This document shows, in pieces, positions 21,601 to 39,376 of a stretch of 64,000 nt of DNA. Both the position numbers and the translations under genes were made by a program. Position 1 is the stretch's first letter; each line of letters begins with the position of its first letter. Under the pieces are notes generated by a model. It searched no databases. It saw nothing but the letters and a program-made list of their open reading frames with translations, and was not told the DNA's origin. This DNA comes from Roseibium suaedae (GTDB lineage: Bacteria > Pseudomonadota > Alphaproteobacteria > Rhizobiales > Stappiaceae): positions 1,054,001-1,118,000 of the forward strand of contig NZ_FRBW01000001.1 of NCBI RefSeq assembly GCF_900142725.1, written 5' to 3'.

Positions 21601-24120
21601 TCACCAGCGGTAGTTCAGCTTGGCCTTCACCGTCCGGCCGCGCCCTGCAATCACCGAGTTGGAATAGAACCCCGGAGAGTAATAATCCTCGTCGGTGAGG
21701 TTGGTGCCGCTCAGGGTGAGGGAGAGGCCAGCCAACTGGGGCATCTTTGCGCCGAAGTCATAGCTCAGCGATGCATCCAGAAGCGTATAGTCCGGCACTT
21801 CCAGCTGGGCTCCGGTGGAGGTGTCGACGAAGGTCAGGGAACTGTCGACATAACGAACGCCTGCGCCGACGCTCAAGCCCTCGAGTGCCGGCATCTGGAA
21901 GTCGTAGTTCAGCCAGACCGATGCGGTGTTGTAGGGCACGGCCTGCACGCGGGTCCCGGTCTTGTTGACCCCGTTTGCATTGGTGTTGTCCTTGGTCACC
22001 CGCGCATCGGTGTAGGTGTAGCTGGCGTGCAGGTTGAAGCCGTAGCCTAGCTCTCCGGACGCCTCCAGTTCGAAACCCTGGGATTGAACTTCACCGGTCT
22101 GAACCGAATAGCCGGAGTGATCCGGATCGGAAGAGGTGACGTTCTGCTGGGTAATGTGGAAGTAGGAGGCAGAAAAGAGACCGTTCCACCAGTCCGGCTT
22201 GAACCTCAGACCGGTTTCAAACTGCTGGCCGGTGGTCGGCTCGAAGTCGCTGCCATTATAGGCCGTGCCGGCCTGAGGCTCGAACGAAGTAGAGAAGCTG
22301 GCATAGGGCGTGATGCCATTGTCGAAGGAATAGGCAAGGCCCGCGCGATAGGTGAAGGCCTGATCCTGAACCGTGTCGACCGCATCACTTGCACCAAGAA
22401 GACCGCTCAGGGTCCGCGAGGCGTAGTTCTCGGTCTTGTTTTCCACCCAGTCATAGCGGCCCGACAGGGTCAGGGTGAAATTGTTCCAGTCGACCTGGTC
22501 CTGCGCGTAGACGCCGAACTGCTTCACGAACAGGGTCTTGTCGAACCAGGGCCGGCAATAGACGCCGAGATAGCACCAGTTGGGGGTGTAGGACGAATAG
22601 TCCGGATTGTTGATGTCGAGCGCCAAGGCGTTCGAGCTGTTGGTGCGCGATTCCCAAATGCGGGAATAGCCGAAGCCTGCGCCCAGCAGCACCTTGTGAT
22701 CCATCTGGCCGAACTGGAAGTCCTTCGACAGATTGCTGTCAAAGGAGAAGCTGTCGGAATCGCGCGGCCGGTCCTGCAGATAGACATTCAGGTAGCGGTT
22801 GCTGACCAGCGTGACCGGATCGGTCCAGGACGAGATGTAGTCCAGTTCCGTATGGGTGTAGCGGGCGCCATTGCGGAAGGTCCAGCCATTGTCGAACTGG
22901 TGCTCGAACTGATAGCCGACGGACTTGGTCTCGCCGTTCCATTCGGTCAGGCCCGGCACGCCGAGATAGAGGTCGGTCGGAATGGGGGCTGCCGTGCCGC
23001 CGATCGCGCTGTCCCAGGGAAGGCTCTGCTCGGAGCCGCCGGTGGTCCATTTCTGGTACTGAGCGAGCAGGGTGACCTGCGTGGCGTCATTCGGCGTCCA
23101 GGTGAAGGCCGGGGCGATATAGAGCATGTCGTCGGGCGAATGATCGACCTGGGTGTCGCTCTCCCGGTGCAGGACCGTCAGGCGGTAGCTGAACTTGCCT
23201 TCCGCATCGATCGGTCCGCCGAAGTCGCCTGTGACCTGGCGGCGGTTGTTGCTGCCATATTCGACGCCGAGTTCATGCAGAGGCTCGCTCGGCGGGCGCT
23301 TGGTGCGCATGTCGACGAGGCCGCCCGGCAGCGCGTCGCCATAAAGCACGGAGGAGGGGCCGCGCAGAACGTTCACCTGCTCCAGGCCATAGGGCTCAAG
23401 ATTGGAATCGTAAGGGTTGTAGCCATTGCGCAAACCGTCCAGATAGAAGGCGCGCTGGGACTGGTGGCGGAAGCCGCGCATGTAGAAGATCGCGCCGATG
23501 CCCTGGCCGCCCGGATAGTCCACGGCCCGCACGCCCGGCGTATAGGCGACAATGTCGTTGAGATCCGTGACCTGCCGGTCCTTGAGTTCCTTCTCCGTGA
23601 TCACGCTGACCGACTGAGGCACCTTGACCAGCGGCGTATCCGTCTTGGTGGCCGTCACCGTGTCGGTGGCAACATAGCCGGTGTCTTCATTGTTGACCGT
23701 CAGCTGTTCCAGCAGCGTGCCGTCACCGCCGACCGCAGCTGCCTGCGCTGCCGGGTCGTAGAGGGCAGCGGACCGCGGACCGCTGATCCGGACGCTGATG
23801 CCCGTACCGGCAACAAGCTGCTGCAGGGCGGCACTTGCAGACATGGTGCCGTTCACGGCTGCGGAACGCTTGCCGCGTACCAGATCCGAGGAATAGCTGA
23901 TCTGCCAGCCGGAGCGGCGGATGAAGCTGGTCAGCGCTGCCGGCAGCGGCTGGGCAGGGATGGCAAAGGCCGCCGTTTCATCGGCCTGCTGCGCCAGCAC
24001 GGGCAGGGCCGTACCGAGTGGAAGGGCCATCAGCCCGGTGGTCATCATCAGATGGACGAGCAGCGTGCGTCCAATCCTTGTCGAGTGTGTCTTCGTGTTG
24101 CGCTGCACGGTCGGAACCAT
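21601..24120 (-). CDS. TonB-dependent siderophore receptor with N-terminal STN signalling domain
   Basis: An outer-membrane receptor of 839 residues in the FhuA/FhuE/FpvA group. A signal peptide ends near PVLAQQAD. An STN (secretin/TonB N-terminal) domain follows at about 50-125 (FAIPAQPLPAALTSFIRRSG, ISYSSDLV, LQQLVAGTGISVRIS). The TonB box lies near DTVTATKTDTPLVKVPQSV. The plug has QVTDLNDIVAYTPGV and RGFRHQSQ, then LRGPSSVLYGDALPGGLVD. The barrel ends in YRW. A Cys pair sits in an extracellular loop (NWCYLGVYCRP). The STN domain plus adjacent FecR/FecI genes indicate surface signalling. Siderophore identity is inferred as hydroxamate from FhuB. Confidence 0.93.
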   Translation of the reverse strand: MVPTVQRNTKTHSTRIGRTLLVHLMMTTGLMALPLGTALPVLAQQADETAAFAIPAQPLPAALTSFIRRSGWQISYSSDLVRGKRSAAVNGTMSASAALQQLVAGTGISVRISGPRSAALYDPAAQAAAVGGDGTLLEQLTVNNEDTGYVATDTVTATKTDTPLVKVPQSVSVITEKELKDRQVTDLNDIVAYTPGVRAVDYPGGQGIGAIFYMRGFRHQSQRAFYLDGLRNGYNPYDSNLEPYGLEQVNVLRGPSSVLYGDALPGGLVDMRTKRPPSEPLHELGVEYGSNNRRQVTGDFGGPIDAEGKFSYRLTVLHRESDTQVDHSPDDMLYIAPAFTWTPNDATQVTLLAQYQKWTTGGSEQSLPWDSAIGGTAAPIPTDLYLGVPGLTEWNGETKSVGYQFEHQFDNGWTFRNGARYTHTELDYISSWTDPVTLVSNRYLNVYLQDRPRDSDSFSFDSNLSKDFQFGQMDHKVLLGAGFGYSRIWESRTNSSNALALDINNPDYSSYTPNWCYLGVYCRPWFDKTLFVKQFGVYAQDQVDWNNFTLTLSGRYDWVENKTENYASRTLSGLLGASDAVDTVQDQAFTYRAGLAYSFDNGITPYASFSTSFEPQAGTAYNGSDFEPTTGQQFETGLRFKPDWWNGLFSASYFHITQQNVTSSDPDHSGYSVQTGEVQSQGFELEASGELGYGFNLHASYTYTDARVTKDNTNANGVNKTGTRVQAVPYNTASVWLNYDFQMPALEGLSVGAGVRYVDSSLTFVDTSTGAQLEVPDYTLLDASLSYDFGAKMPQLAGLSLTLSGTNLTDEDYYSPGFYSNSVIAGRGRTVKAKLNYRW

Positions 24121-24232
24121 TGCGACTATACCCCTTGCCCCAATCAGAAATCCGCCCGGATCACTCGCGTTTTCCGGGCTCTCACTTGATTGGACGAACG
24201 GCTTTCGGAAACCGGCAAAAAAAGTTGAATAT

Positions 24233-25261
24233 TTATTGCAGGATTATCAGGCCGCCCGGCAGGCGCCACAAACCGACACCCGCGGCATCCGCCAGCGTCT
24301 GCAAGGCATTGTCCATGTCGCTGATCAGATAACTTCCGGAAATATGGAACTTGCGCACCCGCTCCATGGGCACGACGATGTTGCCGGGGATGTAGCGGTC
24401 GAGCTCCTTCGCCACGACTTCCAGCGGCTGGTCATCAAAGAACAGCCGCCCTTCGCGCCACGACAAGGCCAGCCCTGCGTCGGTTTCCCGAACATCTGTC
24501 AGTGCTGTCGCGGTGGCGGTCACGGCCTGACCTGCGACCAGGGAGACATTGTCTCCAATATCGGCGAGCCGCTCCACGGAAATGTGGCCGCGTTCCAGCA
24601 CGACGTCGTCACTGTCTTCGGCTGTGTCCACGGAGAAGGCGGTGCCATGCACGGTCACCCTCGCAAAGTGCCCTGTCACCTTGAAGGGATGGTCCTCATC
24701 GTGGGTCACGTCGAAATAGGCTTCCCCCTTGAGAACGGCCACCTCCCGGCGTCCCTGGTCAAAGTCGACGGAAACGGCCGAGCCGGAATTGAGCGTCATG
24801 GCTGAGCCATCGGGCAGGGTGATCTGGCCTGTCGCCCCTTCGGCTGTCTGATAGTCGGCAAGCCAATAGACCCGAATGTCTTCCAGCTTGAGGACCAGAC
24901 CTGCAGCCAGGCAGGCGGCCATGCCAAGCGGCGCCAGGGCTCTCTTTACACTCCGGCCGTTGAAGAGGGGAACCGGTTTGGAAAGTTCCGCCTGCCGCAG
25001 CCGCAAGGCACCTTCCAGAGCCGGGGCCTCCCAGAGGGCGGCAATCCGGTCAAAGGCCTGACTGTGACGGGGATCTTCAGCCAGCCAGGCATCGAAACCC
25101 TGCTGAAGCGCAACCCGCTCGCTCTGGTCCGCAGCCGCCTGAAACCTGAAAAACCAGTCGGCTGCCGCATCCGTCACGGATGGGGCGTCCTGCTCCCCTT
25201 GAGGGGAGGTTCGGGTTTCGGTCGGGCGGTGCTCCGGCATATCTGTCCGCTTCTCATCCAT
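24233..25261 (-). CDS. FecR-family anti-sigma/sigma regulator
   Basis: A 342-residue inner-membrane regulator. The cytoplasmic N-terminal DUF4880-type region (AADWFFRFQAAADQSERVAL...FDAWLAEDPRHSQAFDR) is followed by one membrane helix (about 112-128, ALAPLGMAACLAAGLVL). A periplasmic FecR domain (GQITLPDGSAMTLNSGSAVSVDF...VAVLKGEAYFDV) and a C-terminal STN-interacting region complete the protein. It relays occupancy of the TonB receptor to the FecI-like sigma factor encoded 66 bp upstream. It is one gene apart from the receptor in a minus-strand sigma-FecR-receptor-FhuD-FhuB order. Confidence 0.92.
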   Translation of the reverse strand: MDEKRTDMPEHRPTETRTSPQGEQDAPSVTDAAADWFFRFQAAADQSERVALQQGFDAWLAEDPRHSQAFDRIAALWEAPALEGALRLRQAELSKPVPLFNGRSVKRALAPLGMAACLAAGLVLKLEDIRVYWLADYQTAEGATGQITLPDGSAMTLNSGSAVSVDFDQGRREVAVLKGEAYFDVTHDEDHPFKVTGHFARVTVHGTAFSVDTAEDSDDVVLERGHISVERLADIGDNVSLVAGQAVTATATALTDVRETDAGLALSWREGRLFFDDQPLEVVAKELDRYIPGNIVVPMERVRKFHISGSYLISDMDNALQTLADAAGVGLWRLPGGLIILQ

Positions 25262-33101: not shown

Positions 33102-34703
33102 ATGAAAAAGTTTCTGTTTGGCGCTTCGGCGCTGGTACTTTCCACGGCGTTTTCCGGTGCCGCATTCGCGGACTATACCCTGACCATCCTGCACACCAAC
33201 GACCTGCATTCGCGCATCGAGTCGATCAACAAGTATGATTCGACCTGTGGCGCTGAAGACGAAGGCGAGGGCAAGTGCTTTGGTGGCGTCGCCCGTGTGA
33301 AGGCGAAGGTTGACGAGATGCGCAAGGCTCTCGAAGGCAAGAACTATCTGCTGCTCGATGCCGGTGACCAGTTCCAGGGCTCGCTGTTCTACACCACCTA
33401 CAAGGGCGCGGCGGCTGCCGAGTTCATGAACCTGATCGGCTATGATGGCATGGCTGTCGGCAACCATGAATTCGATGACGGCCCGGCCGGTCTTGCCGGT
33501 TTCCTCGACAAGGTGAAGTTCCCGGTCATCTCCAGCAACCTGGACATGGCAAACGAGCCGCTTCTGAAGGACCGGGTTGCCGAAACCCTGGTGTTCGAGC
33601 GTGGCGGCGAAAAGATCGGCGTGATCTCTTCCCTGGCCGAAGACACGGTTGAAACCTCCTCTCCGGGCGCTGGCGTCGGCTTCATCAATTCCGAAAACGC
33701 CCTGAAGGCAGCTGTTGCCAAGCTTCAGGCTGAAGGCGTCAACAAGATCATCGCGCTGACCCATGAGGGTTACGTCAAGGACAAGGAAATTGCGGCGAAT
33801 GTGCCGGGCATCGACGTAATCGTCGGCGGTCACTCGCACACCCTCCTGTCCAACACCCAGGAAAAGGCCGAAGGCCCGTACCCGACCGTGGTGAAGAACG
33901 CGGAAGGCAAGGACGTGCCGATCGTGACGGCCTATGCCTACAGCAAGTTCCTTGGCGATATCGAGATCACCTTTGATGACGAAGGCAATGTGATCAAGGC
34001 TGAAGGCGAGCCGATCCTGCTCGATGCATCCGTGAAGCCGGATGAAGCTGTTCTGGCGCGCGTTGCTGAGCTCGCCAAGCCGCTTGACGAAGTGCGCAAC
34101 CAGGTGATCGCCGAAAGCACCGGCGTGATCGAAGCTGACCGCACCATCTGCCGTGCGCAGGAATGCGAGATGGGCAATCTGGTGGCTGATGCCATGCTCG
34201 ACCGTGTGAAGGCACAGGGCATCCAGATCGCAATCCAGAACGGTGGCGGTCTTCGTGCATCCATCGACGCTGGTCCGGTGACCAAGGGTGAGGTTCTGAC
34301 GGTTCTGCCATTCCAGAACACGCTGGCAACCTTCCGGCTCAAGGGTGCCGATGTGGTTGCTGCTCTCGAGAATGGTGCAAGCCAGATCGAAGAAGGCGCA
34401 GGCCGCTTCTCCCAGGTTGCAGGTCTGAAGTACACTTTCGACAAGTCCAAGCCGGCAGGCGAGCGCATCTCGGACGTCATGGTCGAGGAAAACGGTGCCT
34501 TCGCTCCGCTGGAAGCTGACAAGGTCTATGGTGTTGTTTCCAACAACTACATGCGTGCTGGTGGCGACGGCTACAAGGTCTTCGCTTCTGGCGGCATGAA
34601 TGCCTATGACTTCGGTCCGGACCTTGCTGATGTTGTCGCTGACTATCTGGCAGCGAAGAACGGTTACACTCCCTACACGGATGGCCGCATCACCGCGAAG
34701 TAA
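33102..34703 (+). CDS. Periplasmic 5'-nucleotidase / 2',3'-cyclic phosphodiesterase (UshA-type)
   Basis: A 533-residue exported metallophosphoesterase. The signal peptide is MKKFLFGASALVLSTAFSGAAFA. The catalytic domain (about 25-320) has all metal motifs: TILHTNDLHSR, DAGDQFQGSLFYT, VGNHEFDDG, THEGYVKDKE and GGHSHT. The C-terminal 5'-nucleotidase domain (about 340-533) has NGGGLRASIDAGPVTKGEV and NNYMRAGGDGY, which bind the nucleotide base. It hydrolyses periplasmic nucleotides to nucleosides and phosphate. The gene is single, bounded by hairpins. An AGGCGAGG ribosome site precedes the ATG. Confidence 0.93.
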   Translation: MKKFLFGASALVLSTAFSGAAFADYTLTILHTNDLHSRIESINKYDSTCGAEDEGEGKCFGGVARVKAKVDEMRKALEGKNYLLLDAGDQFQGSLFYTTYKGAAAAEFMNLIGYDGMAVGNHEFDDGPAGLAGFLDKVKFPVISSNLDMANEPLLKDRVAETLVFERGGEKIGVISSLAEDTVETSSPGAGVGFINSENALKAAVAKLQAEGVNKIIALTHEGYVKDKEIAANVPGIDVIVGGHSHTLLSNTQEKAEGPYPTVVKNAEGKDVPIVTAYAYSKFLGDIEITFDDEGNVIKAEGEPILLDASVKPDEAVLARVAELAKPLDEVRNQVIAESTGVIEADRTICRAQECEMGNLVADAMLDRVKAQGIQIAIQNGGGLRASIDAGPVTKGEVLTVLPFQNTLATFRLKGADVVAALENGASQIEEGAGRFSQVAGLKYTFDKSKPAGERISDVMVEENGAFAPLEADKVYGVVSNNYMRAGGDGYKVFASGGMNAYDFGPDLADVVADYLAAKNGYTPYTDGRITAK

Positions 34704-34734
34704 AAGCTGACATTTTTCAGTCAGTCAGAATCGG

Positions 34735-34763
34735 AAGGCGCTCCGTTGCACGGGGCGCCTTTT
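34735..34763 (+). terminator. Intrinsic terminator of the 5'-nucleotidase gene
   Basis: AAGGCGCTCC pairs with GGGGCGCCTT (one wobble) around a short loop, then TTT, 32 bp after the stop. Confidence 0.8.
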
Positions 34764-34998
34764 GCATTTCTATTTGCGAGTTTTCTGAAATAGAGCATGC
34801 CGAATTACATGTGGAGACTAGAAATCAAGGCCGTTCTATTCCCCATTTGGGGGATGTGAGCAGCTTTAACTCTGGGCTTCTGTGGCATTTGAGTTACGCG
34901 CGGCAACTTTACGATACGAAAGGGACAGCGCAAGCTGGCCGGGTGTCTGGAAGTTTTGTAGGCTAGATAGTTGTGAATTTGAGAGGAGCGGCGGGGGC

Positions 34999-36363
34999 AT
35001 GCCGGTCAAGTTTAATCATTTATTTAACATATTGATTTGCGCGGGGCTTTGCCTCGGCGCTGTCGAAAGCATTTCACCAGTCTATGCCCAGGGGGCAAAT
35101 CCTCAGGCCAGCAACGAGCTGAAAGCCCGTCAGGCGCATCTTCTGACCATTCTTCTGAAGCAGCCGGACAATCTGGATGTTTCTTTCGAATATGCGATGA
35201 TCTCCGCCCAGATCGGCGACTATGAAGCCGCGATCGGCACGTTTGAACGCATGCTGATTTATTCTCCGGGTCTGCCGCGTGTGCAACTGGAGCTGGGCGT
35301 GCTCTATTTCCGTCTCGGCAGCACGGACGCCGCGCGCAGCTATTTTGAATCTGCAATTTCCGGCCCAGAAGTGCCGCCGGAAGTTCAGGCACGCGTTGAG
35401 GAATATCTGGCAGCCATCGGCAACAATGAGAACCCGGCCAAGTTCCGCGCGACGGTGCTTGCCGGTGCCCGTTATCAGAGCAATGCCAACGCCGGCCCGG
35501 GCGATCGCAGCATCAATCTGAACGGTGTGAACTTCCTGCTGAACCAGACCTCCACCGGCCAGTCCGATGTGAACGGCTTCGTCGCTGCCACCCTGCATGG
35601 CGGCTATGATCTGGGCACCCAGGGTGATCTGCTAGAAGCCGATCTGCTGCTCTTTGGAGCGCGTTATGCGGATCTGTCCAAGCTGGACACAGGCCTTGCG
35701 GAACTGACCTTCGGTCCGTCCTTCAATATGCGGCGCTTCAACGTCGACAATGCCCGGCTTGGCTTCTACGGCATTTTGTCCGGCGTGCGTCTGGATACGT
35801 CCAACTATCTTGGCGCCATGGGTCTCGGTTCCAGGTTCGCATGGCGTCTGGATCCGGCAACGACCCTCTCGGGCAAGTTCGAGTTCCGGTACCGCTGGTA
35901 TCATGACACGGTCACCTATTCGACCGTCTCTGACCGCAATGGCCATTTCTACAAGGGTGGCCTGACCCTGATTCACCAGTTCTCCCAGAACTGGGCAGGC
36001 CGCACGCTGATCTTTGGTGACTATGAAGAAACCGCCAAGGCCTGGGAACAGAGCTATGAAATCGGGGGCGGCGTCGGTGCGACCTACAAGTTCGCTTCGC
36101 CGTTTGAAGCCCTTCCGGAGCGCTGGTCGATTGATCTGGAGGCCGGTTATATCCGCCGCCTCTACGACAGCCCGGATCCGCTGATCAACAAGAACGACAG
36201 CCAGAATGACCATGAAGGCTGGGTTCGTGCGGCGTTGAATGTTCCGCTGAAGAACGATTTCTCGATCGGTCTGACCGGCGAATTCCGGCGCGTTTATTCC
36301 AACTATGATCTGGCAACCTACAGCAACGCTTCGGCGATGGTGTCTGTTGCGAAGAACTTTTAA
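34999..36363 (+). CDS. Slam-like (DUF560) outer-membrane translocon with TPR domain
   Basis: A 454-residue outer-membrane protein candidate. A signal peptide (about 1-31, ending VYAQ) precedes TPR-like helices at about 40-155 (LLTILLKQPDNLDVSFEYAMISAQIGDY, PGLPRVQLELGVLYFRLG, AARSYFES). Residues about 165-454 are alternating hydrophobic strands (ARYQSNANAGP; FGARYADLSKL; SGKFEFRYRWYHD) ending with VAKNF, a C-terminal aromatic as in Omp85/Slam-like barrels. This TPR-plus-14-strand plan matches the surface lipoprotein assembly modifier family (type XI secretion). ATG 34999 is chosen since a signal peptide follows. The gene 12 bp downstream is the likely substrate. Confidence 0.82.
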   Translation: MPVKFNHLFNILICAGLCLGAVESISPVYAQGANPQASNELKARQAHLLTILLKQPDNLDVSFEYAMISAQIGDYEAAIGTFERMLIYSPGLPRVQLELGVLYFRLGSTDAARSYFESAISGPEVPPEVQARVEEYLAAIGNNENPAKFRATVLAGARYQSNANAGPGDRSINLNGVNFLLNQTSTGQSDVNGFVAATLHGGYDLGTQGDLLEADLLLFGARYADLSKLDTGLAELTFGPSFNMRRFNVDNARLGFYGILSGVRLDTSNYLGAMGLGSRFAWRLDPATTLSGKFEFRYRWYHDTVTYSTVSDRNGHFYKGGLTLIHQFSQNWAGRTLIFGDYEETAKAWEQSYEIGGGVGATYKFASPFEALPERWSIDLEAGYIRRLYDSPDPLINKNDSQNDHEGWVRAALNVPLKNDFSIGLTGEFRRVYSNYDLATYSNASAMVSVAKNF

Positions 36364-36375
36364 AGGGGGCTTCTC

Positions 36376-39342
36376 ATGACCAGCCGCCATCTTCAGAAAC
36401 TTCGTTATTTCGGCCTTCTGGCTGCTATTCTTCCCGTGACCGCCACGAGCGTGATCCCCGCGCCGGCATTGGCCGCGTCGCAGGTTGGTGTGGCCGCCGC
36501 GGTCAACACGTCTGCTTTCGGCACCGCGCCGGGACTCAACCGCAAGACCAAGGTTCTTGGCGACAACGTCATCTACCGTGAGCGGATCGAGACCACCGGC
36601 TCCGGTCTGGTTCAGGTGCTGCTCGTTGACGGGTCCACCTTCACGGTCGGACCGAATTCCGATCTGGTGATCGATGAGTTCGTCTATGATCCGAACACGG
36701 GTCAGGGCAAGCTGGTCGCAAGCCTTGGCAAGGGCGTTGCCCGTTTCGTCGGCGGCAAGCTGTCGAAGAACAAGGCCGGGGTCAACGTCAATACGCCGGT
36801 CGGCACCATCGGGATCCGTGGCGGCATCGCCAACATGGATCTGACCTCCGGCGGCGGCGTCTTCTCTCTCCTCTTCGGCGAGGAACTGACGTTCACCGGC
36901 CGCAACGGCGATACCAACCGGGTTTATGAGGCCGGCTACACGCTGCAGGTCAGCGGCGGCGGGGCAAACTCCGAGGTTCGCCGGACCACCCAGGCGGATC
37001 TTGGCGGCGTTCAGCAGGGCCTTTCCGGCAAGCCGGGGCAGAGCGGCGGTGCAACGCAGAAGCCGACCGAAGCATCCGTCACGGATTCCGGTTTCAGTCA
37101 GGCAAACTCCGATCTCGGGGTGACCAACACCTTGCCGACACCGAAGCCTGAAGTTGTTCAGTCGACGGAAGTGACCGAGACTGACGAAACGCTGGTCCAG
37201 ATCCAGGAAACCACCCAGAACGAGAACACGGAAGAGATCGCGGAAGAAACGCCGCCCCCTCAGCCGGAGCCTGAGGTTGAAATCGTCAACGTCCGGATCT
37301 TGCGGGCAGGGGATGGCTATACCCCGGCGGGCAGCACAGTTGTTGTTTCCAATCCGGGCGCCCAGGGGCTTCTGGGCGGTTCGAACGGAACTGACGAAGA
37401 TGTCGAGTTCGAAGGCGGTGAAATCACTGCTGGATCCGCGACCGCGCTCTATTATGGCGAAGTGGACGGCAACCCGCTCTATCAGTTTGTTTTCGACACT
37501 GAGCCGAATGTCTATTTCTACACTCAGACCCTCAGCTCTGACGGCGACTACGTTTCCCAGCAGGGCGACAGTCAAGTGGTTCCTGATGCGGAAATAGACA
37601 TTGATACCGCTACATATGGCGACATCAGCGGCTTCGCGCGCGGCGTTCAGGTGAGCAACGAGGACTTCGTTGCCTTCGCCCATTTCCCGGCTCTGTCCTT
37701 CGACGAGACCGGTCCGGTCTATGATCCCGACGGCGCAAACATGATCCTCGGCCTATACGGGGTTGGCACCGACTGGACCCAGTTCAACAAGACCGAGACC
37801 CAGGTCCGGACCTATGAGCTGTCTTCCGATCCGCTGACGACCTTTGTCATGGGCACTGAGACCGGCGATGGTGGTCTGATTCCGCTTGAAACCGACGCTC
37901 TGTACATGAACCCGCTGGTTGCCCAGTTGATGGGCGAAAGCTTCATGAACGAGATCGAGTCCACGGAATTGCTCATGATCCAGAGCGATCCCTCCACGCT
38001 GCTAGGGTCTCAGGTTCTGGCGAGCTCTTTCCTCATCCAGGGAACCGGGGAAGACCAGAAGTCCTTCCTGTCTCTGTCCGTCGGCAGCATCTTTGATGAT
38101 GCTGGTGAGCTGACCTATGACACGGGCCGCCGCGGCAGCCACCGGATGGATTCTTCGGAAACTGCAGGCCGCTATGGCGGCACGATCCAGACCGTTTCAG
38201 CGTCTGACGGCTCCAATTTCTTTGGGTCGGATGCGCAGAGTCTCGTGATCAGCGGCGGCGTTGATATTGATGAGCCGTTCAGCGATGGCTATATCATTCG
38301 CCCGGATACGCTTGACTACACCGATCCGCTCAGCATGACCGTCCATGTCGGCATCCTGTCGGAAGAAACGCCCGTTTCCTCCTTCGAGCGGACACAGCGG
38401 ACTCTCGCGGGCTTTGCGACCGGCGTGTTTGAATCGTCCAACAATGTCACCGGTGGTGTTCTTGAGCCGAAGCTCTTTGCAAGCACCGACACGGATGATT
38501 TCAGCATCACCTTCCTGCCGGGCAGCAACACTTTGACGGCGCTCGTCAGTGTCGAGGATGTGCTGGATGCTGACAGCGAAATCGATAGCTACAGCTTCGG
38601 TTTTGGCCAGAACACGGACGGCAGCGGCGGCAGTGGCCGTGCGACCTTTATCGATGACGATACCTATGCCGCGCGCGAGATGCGGGACACGAGCGAAGCA
38701 TTCGTCGTGACCGACAGCAGTGCAATCGTCACACAGCCGGACGGGGACAACCCGAACAGCTACCTCATTCCCGATACTCTGATGCCGGGTGCGGATGCAG
38801 ACATCTTCGTTGGCGTCAACCGCTGCACCTGTGCCTTCCTGGAGTGGGGCTACTGGGGGGCGTCGGTTCAGCTTAATGGTGAGGATGCTGCGGCAAACCT
38901 GACCAATGGCGAGCGCTACGACAACATGCATCTGGGCACCTGGGTTGCCGGGAATGCCACGGCCAGCGCTGATCTGCCCACCAGCGGCACGGCAACCTAT
39001 GCCGGTCATGCGGTCGGCAGTGTCGTGAACAACGGCGCGCAGTATCTGGCAGCTGGCAATTTCGGACTGGAAGTCGATTTTGCGGCCCGCAACGCGACGG
39101 CTGCGATCACCAACTTCGATGGTCACACCTTCGGTTCGAACATGTCCGAAGTGACGACCGGTGCTGATACCAACCTGTTCAGCGGCGGCATTGCCGATCC
39201 CAACGAGATCATGCAAGGCCAGATCAATGCGGCGATCGTGACCGGTCCGGATAGTCTCATCGACGGGGTGATGGGGAATTTCACCATCGACGATGGCACA
39301 GGATGGCAGGCGACGGGCATCGTCGCTGGTCAGCTCCAGTAA
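36376..39342 (+). CDS. Large secreted protein: FecR domain plus TbpB-like C-terminal barrel (candidate Slam substrate)
   Basis: A 988-residue exported protein. The signal peptide ends ALAAS near residue 35, with no lipobox Cys after it. A FecR domain follows at about 55-190 (VLLVDGSTFTVGPNSDLVIDEF; NVNTPVGTIGIRGG). Then comes a low-complexity linker (about 200-300, Thr/Glu/Pro-rich, with PPPQPEPEVEIV). The middle region, about 300-800, is a beta-rich domain with no recognised family. The last 110 residues look like the TbpB/Slam-substrate barrel: SGTATYAGHAVGSVVNNG, AGNFGLEVDFAARNATAAITNFDG, GQINAAIV and GWQATGIVAGQ. Two Cys lie close together (NRCTCAFLEWGYWG, about 817-819). It is 12 bp after the Slam-like gene with AAAGGGGG ahead of the ATG. 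Function is unknown. Confidence 0.75.
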   Translation: MTSRHLQKLRYFGLLAAILPVTATSVIPAPALAASQVGVAAAVNTSAFGTAPGLNRKTKVLGDNVIYRERIETTGSGLVQVLLVDGSTFTVGPNSDLVIDEFVYDPNTGQGKLVASLGKGVARFVGGKLSKNKAGVNVNTPVGTIGIRGGIANMDLTSGGGVFSLLFGEELTFTGRNGDTNRVYEAGYTLQVSGGGANSEVRRTTQADLGGVQQGLSGKPGQSGGATQKPTEASVTDSGFSQANSDLGVTNTLPTPKPEVVQSTEVTETDETLVQIQETTQNENTEEIAEETPPPQPEPEVEIVNVRILRAGDGYTPAGSTVVVSNPGAQGLLGGSNGTDEDVEFEGGEITAGSATALYYGEVDGNPLYQFVFDTEPNVYFYTQTLSSDGDYVSQQGDSQVVPDAEIDIDTATYGDISGFARGVQVSNEDFVAFAHFPALSFDETGPVYDPDGANMILGLYGVGTDWTQFNKTETQVRTYELSSDPLTTFVMGTETGDGGLIPLETDALYMNPLVAQLMGESFMNEIESTELLMIQSDPSTLLGSQVLASSFLIQGTGEDQKSFLSLSVGSIFDDAGELTYDTGRRGSHRMDSSETAGRYGGTIQTVSASDGSNFFGSDAQSLVISGGVDIDEPFSDGYIIRPDTLDYTDPLSMTVHVGILSEETPVSSFERTQRTLAGFATGVFESSNNVTGGVLEPKLFASTDTDDFSITFLPGSNTLTALVSVEDVLDADSEIDSYSFGFGQNTDGSGGSGRATFIDDDTYAAREMRDTSEAFVVTDSSAIVTQPDGDNPNSYLIPDTLMPGADADIFVGVNRCTCAFLEWGYWGASVQLNGEDAAANLTNGERYDNMHLGTWVAGNATASADLPTSGTATYAGHAVGSVVNNGAQYLAAGNFGLEVDFAARNATAAITNFDGHTFGSNMSEVTTGADTNLFSGGIADPNEIMQGQINAAIVTGPDSLIDGVMGNFTIDDGTGWQATGIVAGQLQ

Positions 39343-39350
39343 GACTTGAA

Positions 39351-39376
39351 AAGGCCGCCCTCGAGGCGGCCTTTTT
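39351..39376 (+). terminator. Intrinsic terminator after the Slam-unit cargo gene
   Basis: AAGGCCGCC pairs with GGCGGCCTT around a CTCGA loop, followed by TTTTT, 8 bp after the stop. This closes the Slam-cargo transcription unit. Confidence 0.88.

Follow-up and report, generated by a model that had tools for sequence, protein, structure and literature searches.

A divergent DUF560/Slam-family outer-membrane protein paired with a FecR-bearing candidate cargo in Roseibium suaedae, and its association with CHASE2 cyclases

The gene pair and its flanks

The window analysed in this study is a stretch of 64,000 nucleotides of the Roseibium suaedae genome (contig NZ_FRBW01000001.1), and two neighbouring genes on its forward strand form its subject. 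The first (34999-36363) codes for an outer-membrane protein (OMP) of 454 amino acids and the second (36376-39342) for a protein of 988 amino acids with a FecR domain and a C-terminal lobe. They are separated by 12 bp, exactly as the first-pass annotation had given them, and each is present in a single copy in the genome. The closest named locus found was that of Roseibium litorale, in which the OMP is 93% identical. A terminator-like hairpin identified by pattern scan (34732-34764, + strand) follows the upstream 5'-nucleotidase gene and sets the pair apart from it. Behind the pair, the terminator proposed earlier can be read in the sequence as a hairpin with a T run (39350-39376, + strand), although it was not among the hairpins given by the pattern scan. 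A sigma-70 scan gave no promoter specific to the pair.

The 5'-nucleotidase-like gene (window 33102-34703) lies ahead of the pair in most loci of the family and was considered as a third partner. This was dropped, since it is found at none of the 55 class loci and hence is a feature of the chromosomal site and not of the system. On the far side of this gene from the pair, short FecR proteins are encoded in L068, L091, L098 and other family loci, and they often end in a C-x(2-4)-C motif such as CYYGC or CTYGC. The window also holds, on the reverse strand at 21601-25261, a TonB-dependent receptor with an STN domain (839 amino acids) adjoining a DUF4880-FecR-FecR_C protein (342 amino acids), which is an ordinary FecR-type cell-surface signalling set with an architecture unrelated to that of the pair.

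Family membership and fold of the two proteins

The OMP carries a predicted Sec-type signal peptide (residues 1-30; 34999-35088, read from the sequence), a TPR domain (residues 35-143; 35101-35427) supported by Pfam TPR matches and by the helices of the AF2 model, and a 14-stranded outer-membrane barrel (residues 147-453; 35437-36357). In the model (pLDDT 82), helices occupy residues 35-143 and exactly 14 strands occupy residues 147-453, and the terminal residue is F, in agreement with the exported protein with TPR-like helices and an aromatic-ended barrel that had been described from the letters alone. In single-sequence searches against Pfam, NCBIfam and PDB the OMP stays under the cut-off. 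The sub-threshold Pfam matches were SlipAM (4.6e-3; 17.0 bits against a cut-off of 22 bits) and TPR_Slam (2.9e-3), and in the whole genome this protein was the sole SlipAM match of whatever strength. Profile-profile comparison was therefore required. A profile of 44 aligned family homologues, all 44 of which showed TPR matches, was compared by hhalign with Slam proteins gathered by PF04575 alone. It gave 99.3-99.9% for the complete proteins and 96.2-99.4% when the TPR part was removed to leave the barrel, whereas the BcsC control gave 0.2%. The check on DUF560 suggested at first pass has thus come out weak by single-sequence Pfam and strong by profile-profile comparison, and the OMP is a divergent member of the DUF560/Slam family of type XI secretion (T11SS).

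The 988-residue protein, the predicted T11SS cargo, begins with a predicted Sec signal peptide without lipobox (residues 1-33; 36376-36474), followed by the FecR domain core (residues 70-168; 36583-36879), a disordered Thr/Glu/Pro-rich linker (residues 216-302; 37021-37281; pLDDT < 50), a middle beta-rich domain of partly assigned fold (residues 303-669; 37282-38382; pLDDT ~80-95) and a TbpB-like handle-plus-barrel lobe (residues 670-988; 38383-39339). The FecR match (PF04773, 1.3e-7) exceeds its Pfam cut-off and stands by itself, DUF4880 and FecR_C being absent around it in the Pfam search. This domain is the best conserved region across the protein family, and the length of the linker varies widely among the homologues. 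In the AF2 model, residues ~300-988 have a pLDDT of ~90, and the FecR domain and the linker are of low confidence.

At the C-terminus, FHBP_C (4.7e-4) and TbpB_B_D (9e-4) were sub-threshold Pfam matches, and NCBIfam slam_lipo was matched at 3.4e-7. The C-terminal motifs quoted in the annotation are present, and the domain order that it gave (FecR, linker, TbpB-like end) holds. The best 50 PDB chains in the Foldseek search of the lobe were all TbpB, LbpB, fHbp or NHBA, which are known or proposed Slam substrates. Residues 676-988 aligned with the TbpB C-lobe at Z 12.1 (rmsd 4.1, 195 aligned) and the lobe with NHBA at Z 11.2 (rmsd 2.7, 147 aligned), and HpuA, fHbp and LbpB were also among its structural matches. 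A profile search of PDB sequences with the cargo returned fHbp and NHBA; its other rows were weak (E of at least 0.08) and unrelated. By structure comparison the cargo has a C-terminal barrel with a preceding handle, as defined for Slam cargo with its eight-stranded barrel, and the TbpB-type fold that had been anticipated is confirmed. A lipobox cysteine after the signal peptide, the mark of a Slam-dependent surface lipoprotein, was not found in the cargo, and a lipobox-like motif was seen in just one of 34 homologues, at a doubtful position.

The mature cargo has two cysteines in all, C817 and C819, which form a CxC motif (38824-38832) just ahead of EWGYWG. Comparison of homologues showed the motif to be retained in all 34 family proteins and in 18 of 27 FecR-barrel proteins at class level. 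For the middle domain, one TbpB chain aligns over cargo residues 306-988 at an rmsd of 18.6, and a self-comparison of the cargo for a second TbpB lobe in residues 303-669 gave nothing; such a lobe may possibly be present there. A homologue of 1632 amino acids (L144:4921-9819) has a tandem double middle-plus-barrel module behind a single FecR domain.

Co-occurrence with FecR proteins and CHASE2 cyclases

The OMP was found in 46 of the 87 genomes of the family sample. The barrel occurs in 36 of these 46, each time adjoining the OMP, and in none of the 41 genomes without OMP (Fisher 1e-15, with the kinship of the genomes ignored), so that the expected linkage of the two genes in relatives is borne out. 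The FecR-barrel proteins share ~45% mutual identity across the family while the pair is kept together, which argues against a chance pairing. In the class sample (337 genomes), the OMP was present in 24 of 26 genomes with the barrel and in 33 of 311 without it. The genomes are related, and therefore these and the other tabulated counts are not independent.

The tight linkage notwithstanding, the constant neighbour of the OMP is the FecR domain and not the barrel. Ten family genomes have the OMP with the barrel protein nowhere in the genome; nine of these code for a short FecR protein (~280-320 amino acids) close by, and in the tenth (G076) a contig end cuts the locus. At class level, the gene that directly follows the OMP codes for a FecR protein in 33 of the 55 alphaproteobacterial loci, and in some it overlaps the OMP gene. 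Some of these partners have the lobe, some have a compact C-terminal domain bearing a DFGART-type motif, which may be a diverged barrel missed by the profile, and some have a Pro- or Gly-rich tail only. Among 30 Slams gathered by PF04575 without reference to the window, five had a FecR gene within ~1.5 kb, and all five belong to other classes of the phylum. A search of 72,556 plasmid records gave three matches, from Shinella sp. H4-D48, Paracoccus aminophilus and Azospirillum thermophilum, and all were OMP-FecR pairs. FecR matches were found in 91 of 190 class genomes, with five in the genome of the window, and at that frequency adjacency to the OMP by chance would be rare. The FECR3 and CTD3 profiles were built iteratively from their own matches, so their E-values are optimistic; Pfam supports FecR in all submitted proteins, including two of the plasmid proteins. 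No OMP-FecR gene fusion was found. The first-pass annotation had regarded the joining of FecR with the barrel as an oddity. This is not upheld, as FecR adjoins the OMP clade throughout Alphaproteobacteria and some Slams elsewhere, often without any barrel.

In a quick OMP tree, with unsure root and long branches, the FecR-paired OMPs fell in several well-separated groups. Cargo genes are unlinked and multiple in some class genomes. One of these, G367, carries six FecR-barrel genes on six contigs (L153-L157 and L168) and a single OMP on a further contig, which gives the impression of one translocon shared by many cargoes.

A further association was found with adenylate/guanylate cyclases bearing the CHASE2 domain. 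Such a cyclase follows directly after OMP-FecR on the Shinella and Paracoccus plasmids. Among the 55 class loci, 23 have one close to the OMP, on either side of it and in either orientation; this variable arrangement speaks for function over inherited order. Neither in the window nor in Stappiaceae does the cyclase lie near the pair. A strong CHASE2 cyclase match (E < 1e-50, a threshold chosen after inspection of the data) was present in 44 of the 46 OMP-bearing family genomes, the exceptions being G077 (89% complete, 7% contaminated) and G003. In the latter, the OMP and FecR-barrel genes at L105 (G003:C36) are both in pieces. Twelve of the 44 cyclase loci were read, that of the genome of the window among them, and none had a FecR neighbour. 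Strong cyclases also occur in 12 of the 41 OMP-less family genomes. Nine of these loci were read and each cyclase had a FecR partner of its own, as was deduced from coordinates for the other three. A solo (unlinked) cyclase was accordingly counted in 44 of 46 OMP-bearing and 0 of 41 OMP-less genomes, partly from coordinates.

The FecR partners in the OMP-less genomes are either short or 1076-1789 amino acids long; the long ones have cadherin/Ig-like repeats, usually end in a serralysin/RTX region and adjoin the cyclases at L300, L301, L302, L303, L304 and L306. Three of the long proteins were scanned, and the repeats were found in all three and a serralysin/RTX C-terminus in two, so that an earlier idea that they might be barrels like NsrA of Sinorhizobium meliloti was wrong. 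The cyclase tree groups the solo cyclases in a single clade that lies within the OMP-linked cyclases of other families, and a supported branch parts this clade from cyclases of the same genus that are linked to RTX-FecR proteins. Taken from gene content, these patterns suggest that a functional link between the pair and the CHASE2 cyclase is likely.

Proposed mechanism and its alternatives

The OMP and the FecR-lobe protein are very probably a T11SS translocon and its cargo. The explanation that we favour overall, and hold to be reasonably probable, adds that this system exports the lobe, with a periplasmic FecR domain coupled to the CHASE2 cyclase. The DUF560/Slam-family barrel (TPR plus 14 strands) would export the handle-barrel lobe at the C-terminus of the FecR protein. 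The barrel of the lobe would be the targeting domain, as is presumed for T11SS cargo (PMC12282271), and TbpB is known to pass through Slam unfolded (PMC9090332). The N-terminal FecR domain would remain in the periplasm, where FecR domains are taken to act (PMC5498481), tethered through the disordered linker. There it may couple to the inner-membrane cyclase encoded elsewhere in the genome, with its CHASE2 domain at about 1278400-1280700 of G000:C6. CHASE2 is a domain with which inner-membrane proteins sense signals outside the cytoplasm (PMC5192318), and ligand binding outside or the state of export could be relayed inward as cAMP or cGMP.

An N-terminal FecR domain, a flexible linker, an exported lobe and a co-evolving cyclase together suggest FecR inside and the lobe outside, and a role of FecR as periplasmic anchor and signalling domain is somewhat favoured on these grounds. 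LapA-type adhesins show N-terminal periplasmic retention, and the RTX-FecR proteins fit the same layout for this reason. We know of no precedent for prolonged occupancy of a T11SS translocon by a tethered cargo. The annotation had proposed a cognate Slam-like pair whose cargo is secreted. The pair and the absence of lipidation stand, and free secretion is less well supported, because the co-inheritance of the CHASE2 cyclase and the comparison with the FecR-RTX proteins fit better with FecR held in the periplasm.

The rival explanations differ in how much of this they retain. A plain T11SS pair, in which the whole FecR-lobe protein is exported and then released or bound at the surface, is supported by the lobe fold and the linkage to the OMP, and among the known cargo there are soluble proteins that carry no lipid and vary in their N-terminal domains (PMC12282271). 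FecR would then be an N-terminal passenger or a surface-binding domain, and the cyclase would just control expression of the pair. This is rather unlikely, as it does not lead one to expect FecR as constant partner even where no exportable lobe was found, nor the pairing of FecR proteins with CHASE2 cyclases also where an OMP of the Slam-like kind is absent. The same barrel-less loci speak for another possibility, that targeting or an adaptor function lies with FecR and not with the barrel; FecR would then bind the TPR domain of the OMP and be itself cargo or gate. This would account for the OMP-FecR pairs without barrel, in which FecR-only proteins ending in disordered Pro- or Gly-rich tails are encoded directly 3' of the OMP, some overlapping it; where the barrel is missing, it cannot act as targeting signal. 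Yet the lobe, where present, is clearly related to known Slam substrates, in which the barrel is the presumed signal, and part of the compact C-terminal domains may be overlooked barrels, so that we consider this adaptor role improbable.

The partnership itself would be dissolved if the OMP were a TPR-barrel exporter of exopolysaccharide of the BcsC/PelB type and its neighbour had nothing to do with export. BcsC and PelB do top the Foldseek ranking of PDB matches listed for the OMP, which also includes CymA and OmpG, the nearest solved barrels (Z 20-22). No Slam structure is among the matches listed, and the BcsC and PelB rows therefore reflect a common arrangement and tell nothing on membership beyond the 14-strand barrel. 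The BcsC control in hhalign (0.2%, against 96-99% for Slam) speaks against this identity for the OMP, and the partner has the fold of a Slam substrate, which leaves such a reading extremely improbable. Our preferred reading remains export of the lobe with FecR retained inside; the export itself, this retention, the contact of FecR with CHASE2 and the direction of signalling are what we infer.

Parts of this scheme are known from other systems. The pair resembles Slam/T11SS (DUF560, PF04575; TbpB, fHbp, HpuA, hemophilin) in its TPR plus 14-strand OMP, handle-barrel partner and tight linkage. It differs in an OMP that falls under the Pfam cut-off, in a cargo that is not lipidated and bears an N-terminal FecR domain, and in the constant association with FecR and a CHASE2 cyclase. 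Ten T11SS cargo architectures have been described, and FecR is not named among them (PMC12282271). The cluster 3 marine T11SS of Rhodobacteraceae/Roseobacteraceae are likewise alphaproteobacterial DUF560 OMPs, often without adjoining barrel cargo; the neighbours given for them are DUF1194, thymidylate synthase and glyoxalase, without mention of FecR (PMC12282271). In the OMP tree, the barrel-paired alphaproteobacterial Slams that were sampled (family f14) were placed apart from cluster 3.

A FecR domain together with an outer-membrane barrel recalls FecA-FecR-FecI, in which FecR relays a signal inward from the barrel. In the present pair, by contrast, the FecR-bearing protein is exported and lacks both the anti-sigma and the FecR_C parts; its outer-membrane partner does not depend on TonB, and a cyclase is proposed as the output. 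In S. meliloti, CHASE2 adenylate cyclases (CyaD1/CyaD2/CyaK) require the outer-membrane beta-barrel protein NsrA to perceive their signal; NsrA is one long protein, of which residues 600-1200 are described as the barrel (PMC7529298, PMC13001267). The Burkholderia operon of a LysM-FecR protein and a CHASE2 histidine kinase also places an exported FecR protein beside a CHASE2 sensor, but has no outer-membrane translocon and a histidine kinase output (PMC5192318). CHASE2 cyclases of Campylobacterota cluster with a FecR outer-membrane protein, a TPR protein and a phosphodiesterase, for which one pathway was proposed (PMC9239204). The gene set described here very probably belongs to this kind, whereas in the available portion of that report the TPR protein is not identified as a T11SS OMP and a Slam-type lobe is not reported. 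T11SS cargo, the FecR/CHASE2/TPR cluster and NsrA were thus known already, and what appears to be new is the joining of T11SS, FecR and CHASE2, for which no paper was found in the open-licence literature.

This study bears on a question already posed in the field. Marine cluster 3 DUF560 proteins seldom adjoin barrel-bearing cargo, and the authors who noted this asked what the cargo might be (PMC12282271). For the alphaproteobacterial DUF560 family at large, FecR proteins, whether or not they carry a barrel, offer a specific answer that can be tested. We tentatively suggest that this T11SS branch may be a trans-envelope sensor, with the lobe displayed outside and the periplasmic FecR controlling a CHASE2 cyclase, and that FecR pairing may extend across DUF560, with the lipoprotein-only Slams as a specialised branch. 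If the link to the cyclase is true, a secretion channel would also serve as a sensor, the Campylobacterota cluster (PMC9239204) would gain an outer-membrane component, and the finding would bear on how outer-membrane proteins feed CHASE2 cyclases.
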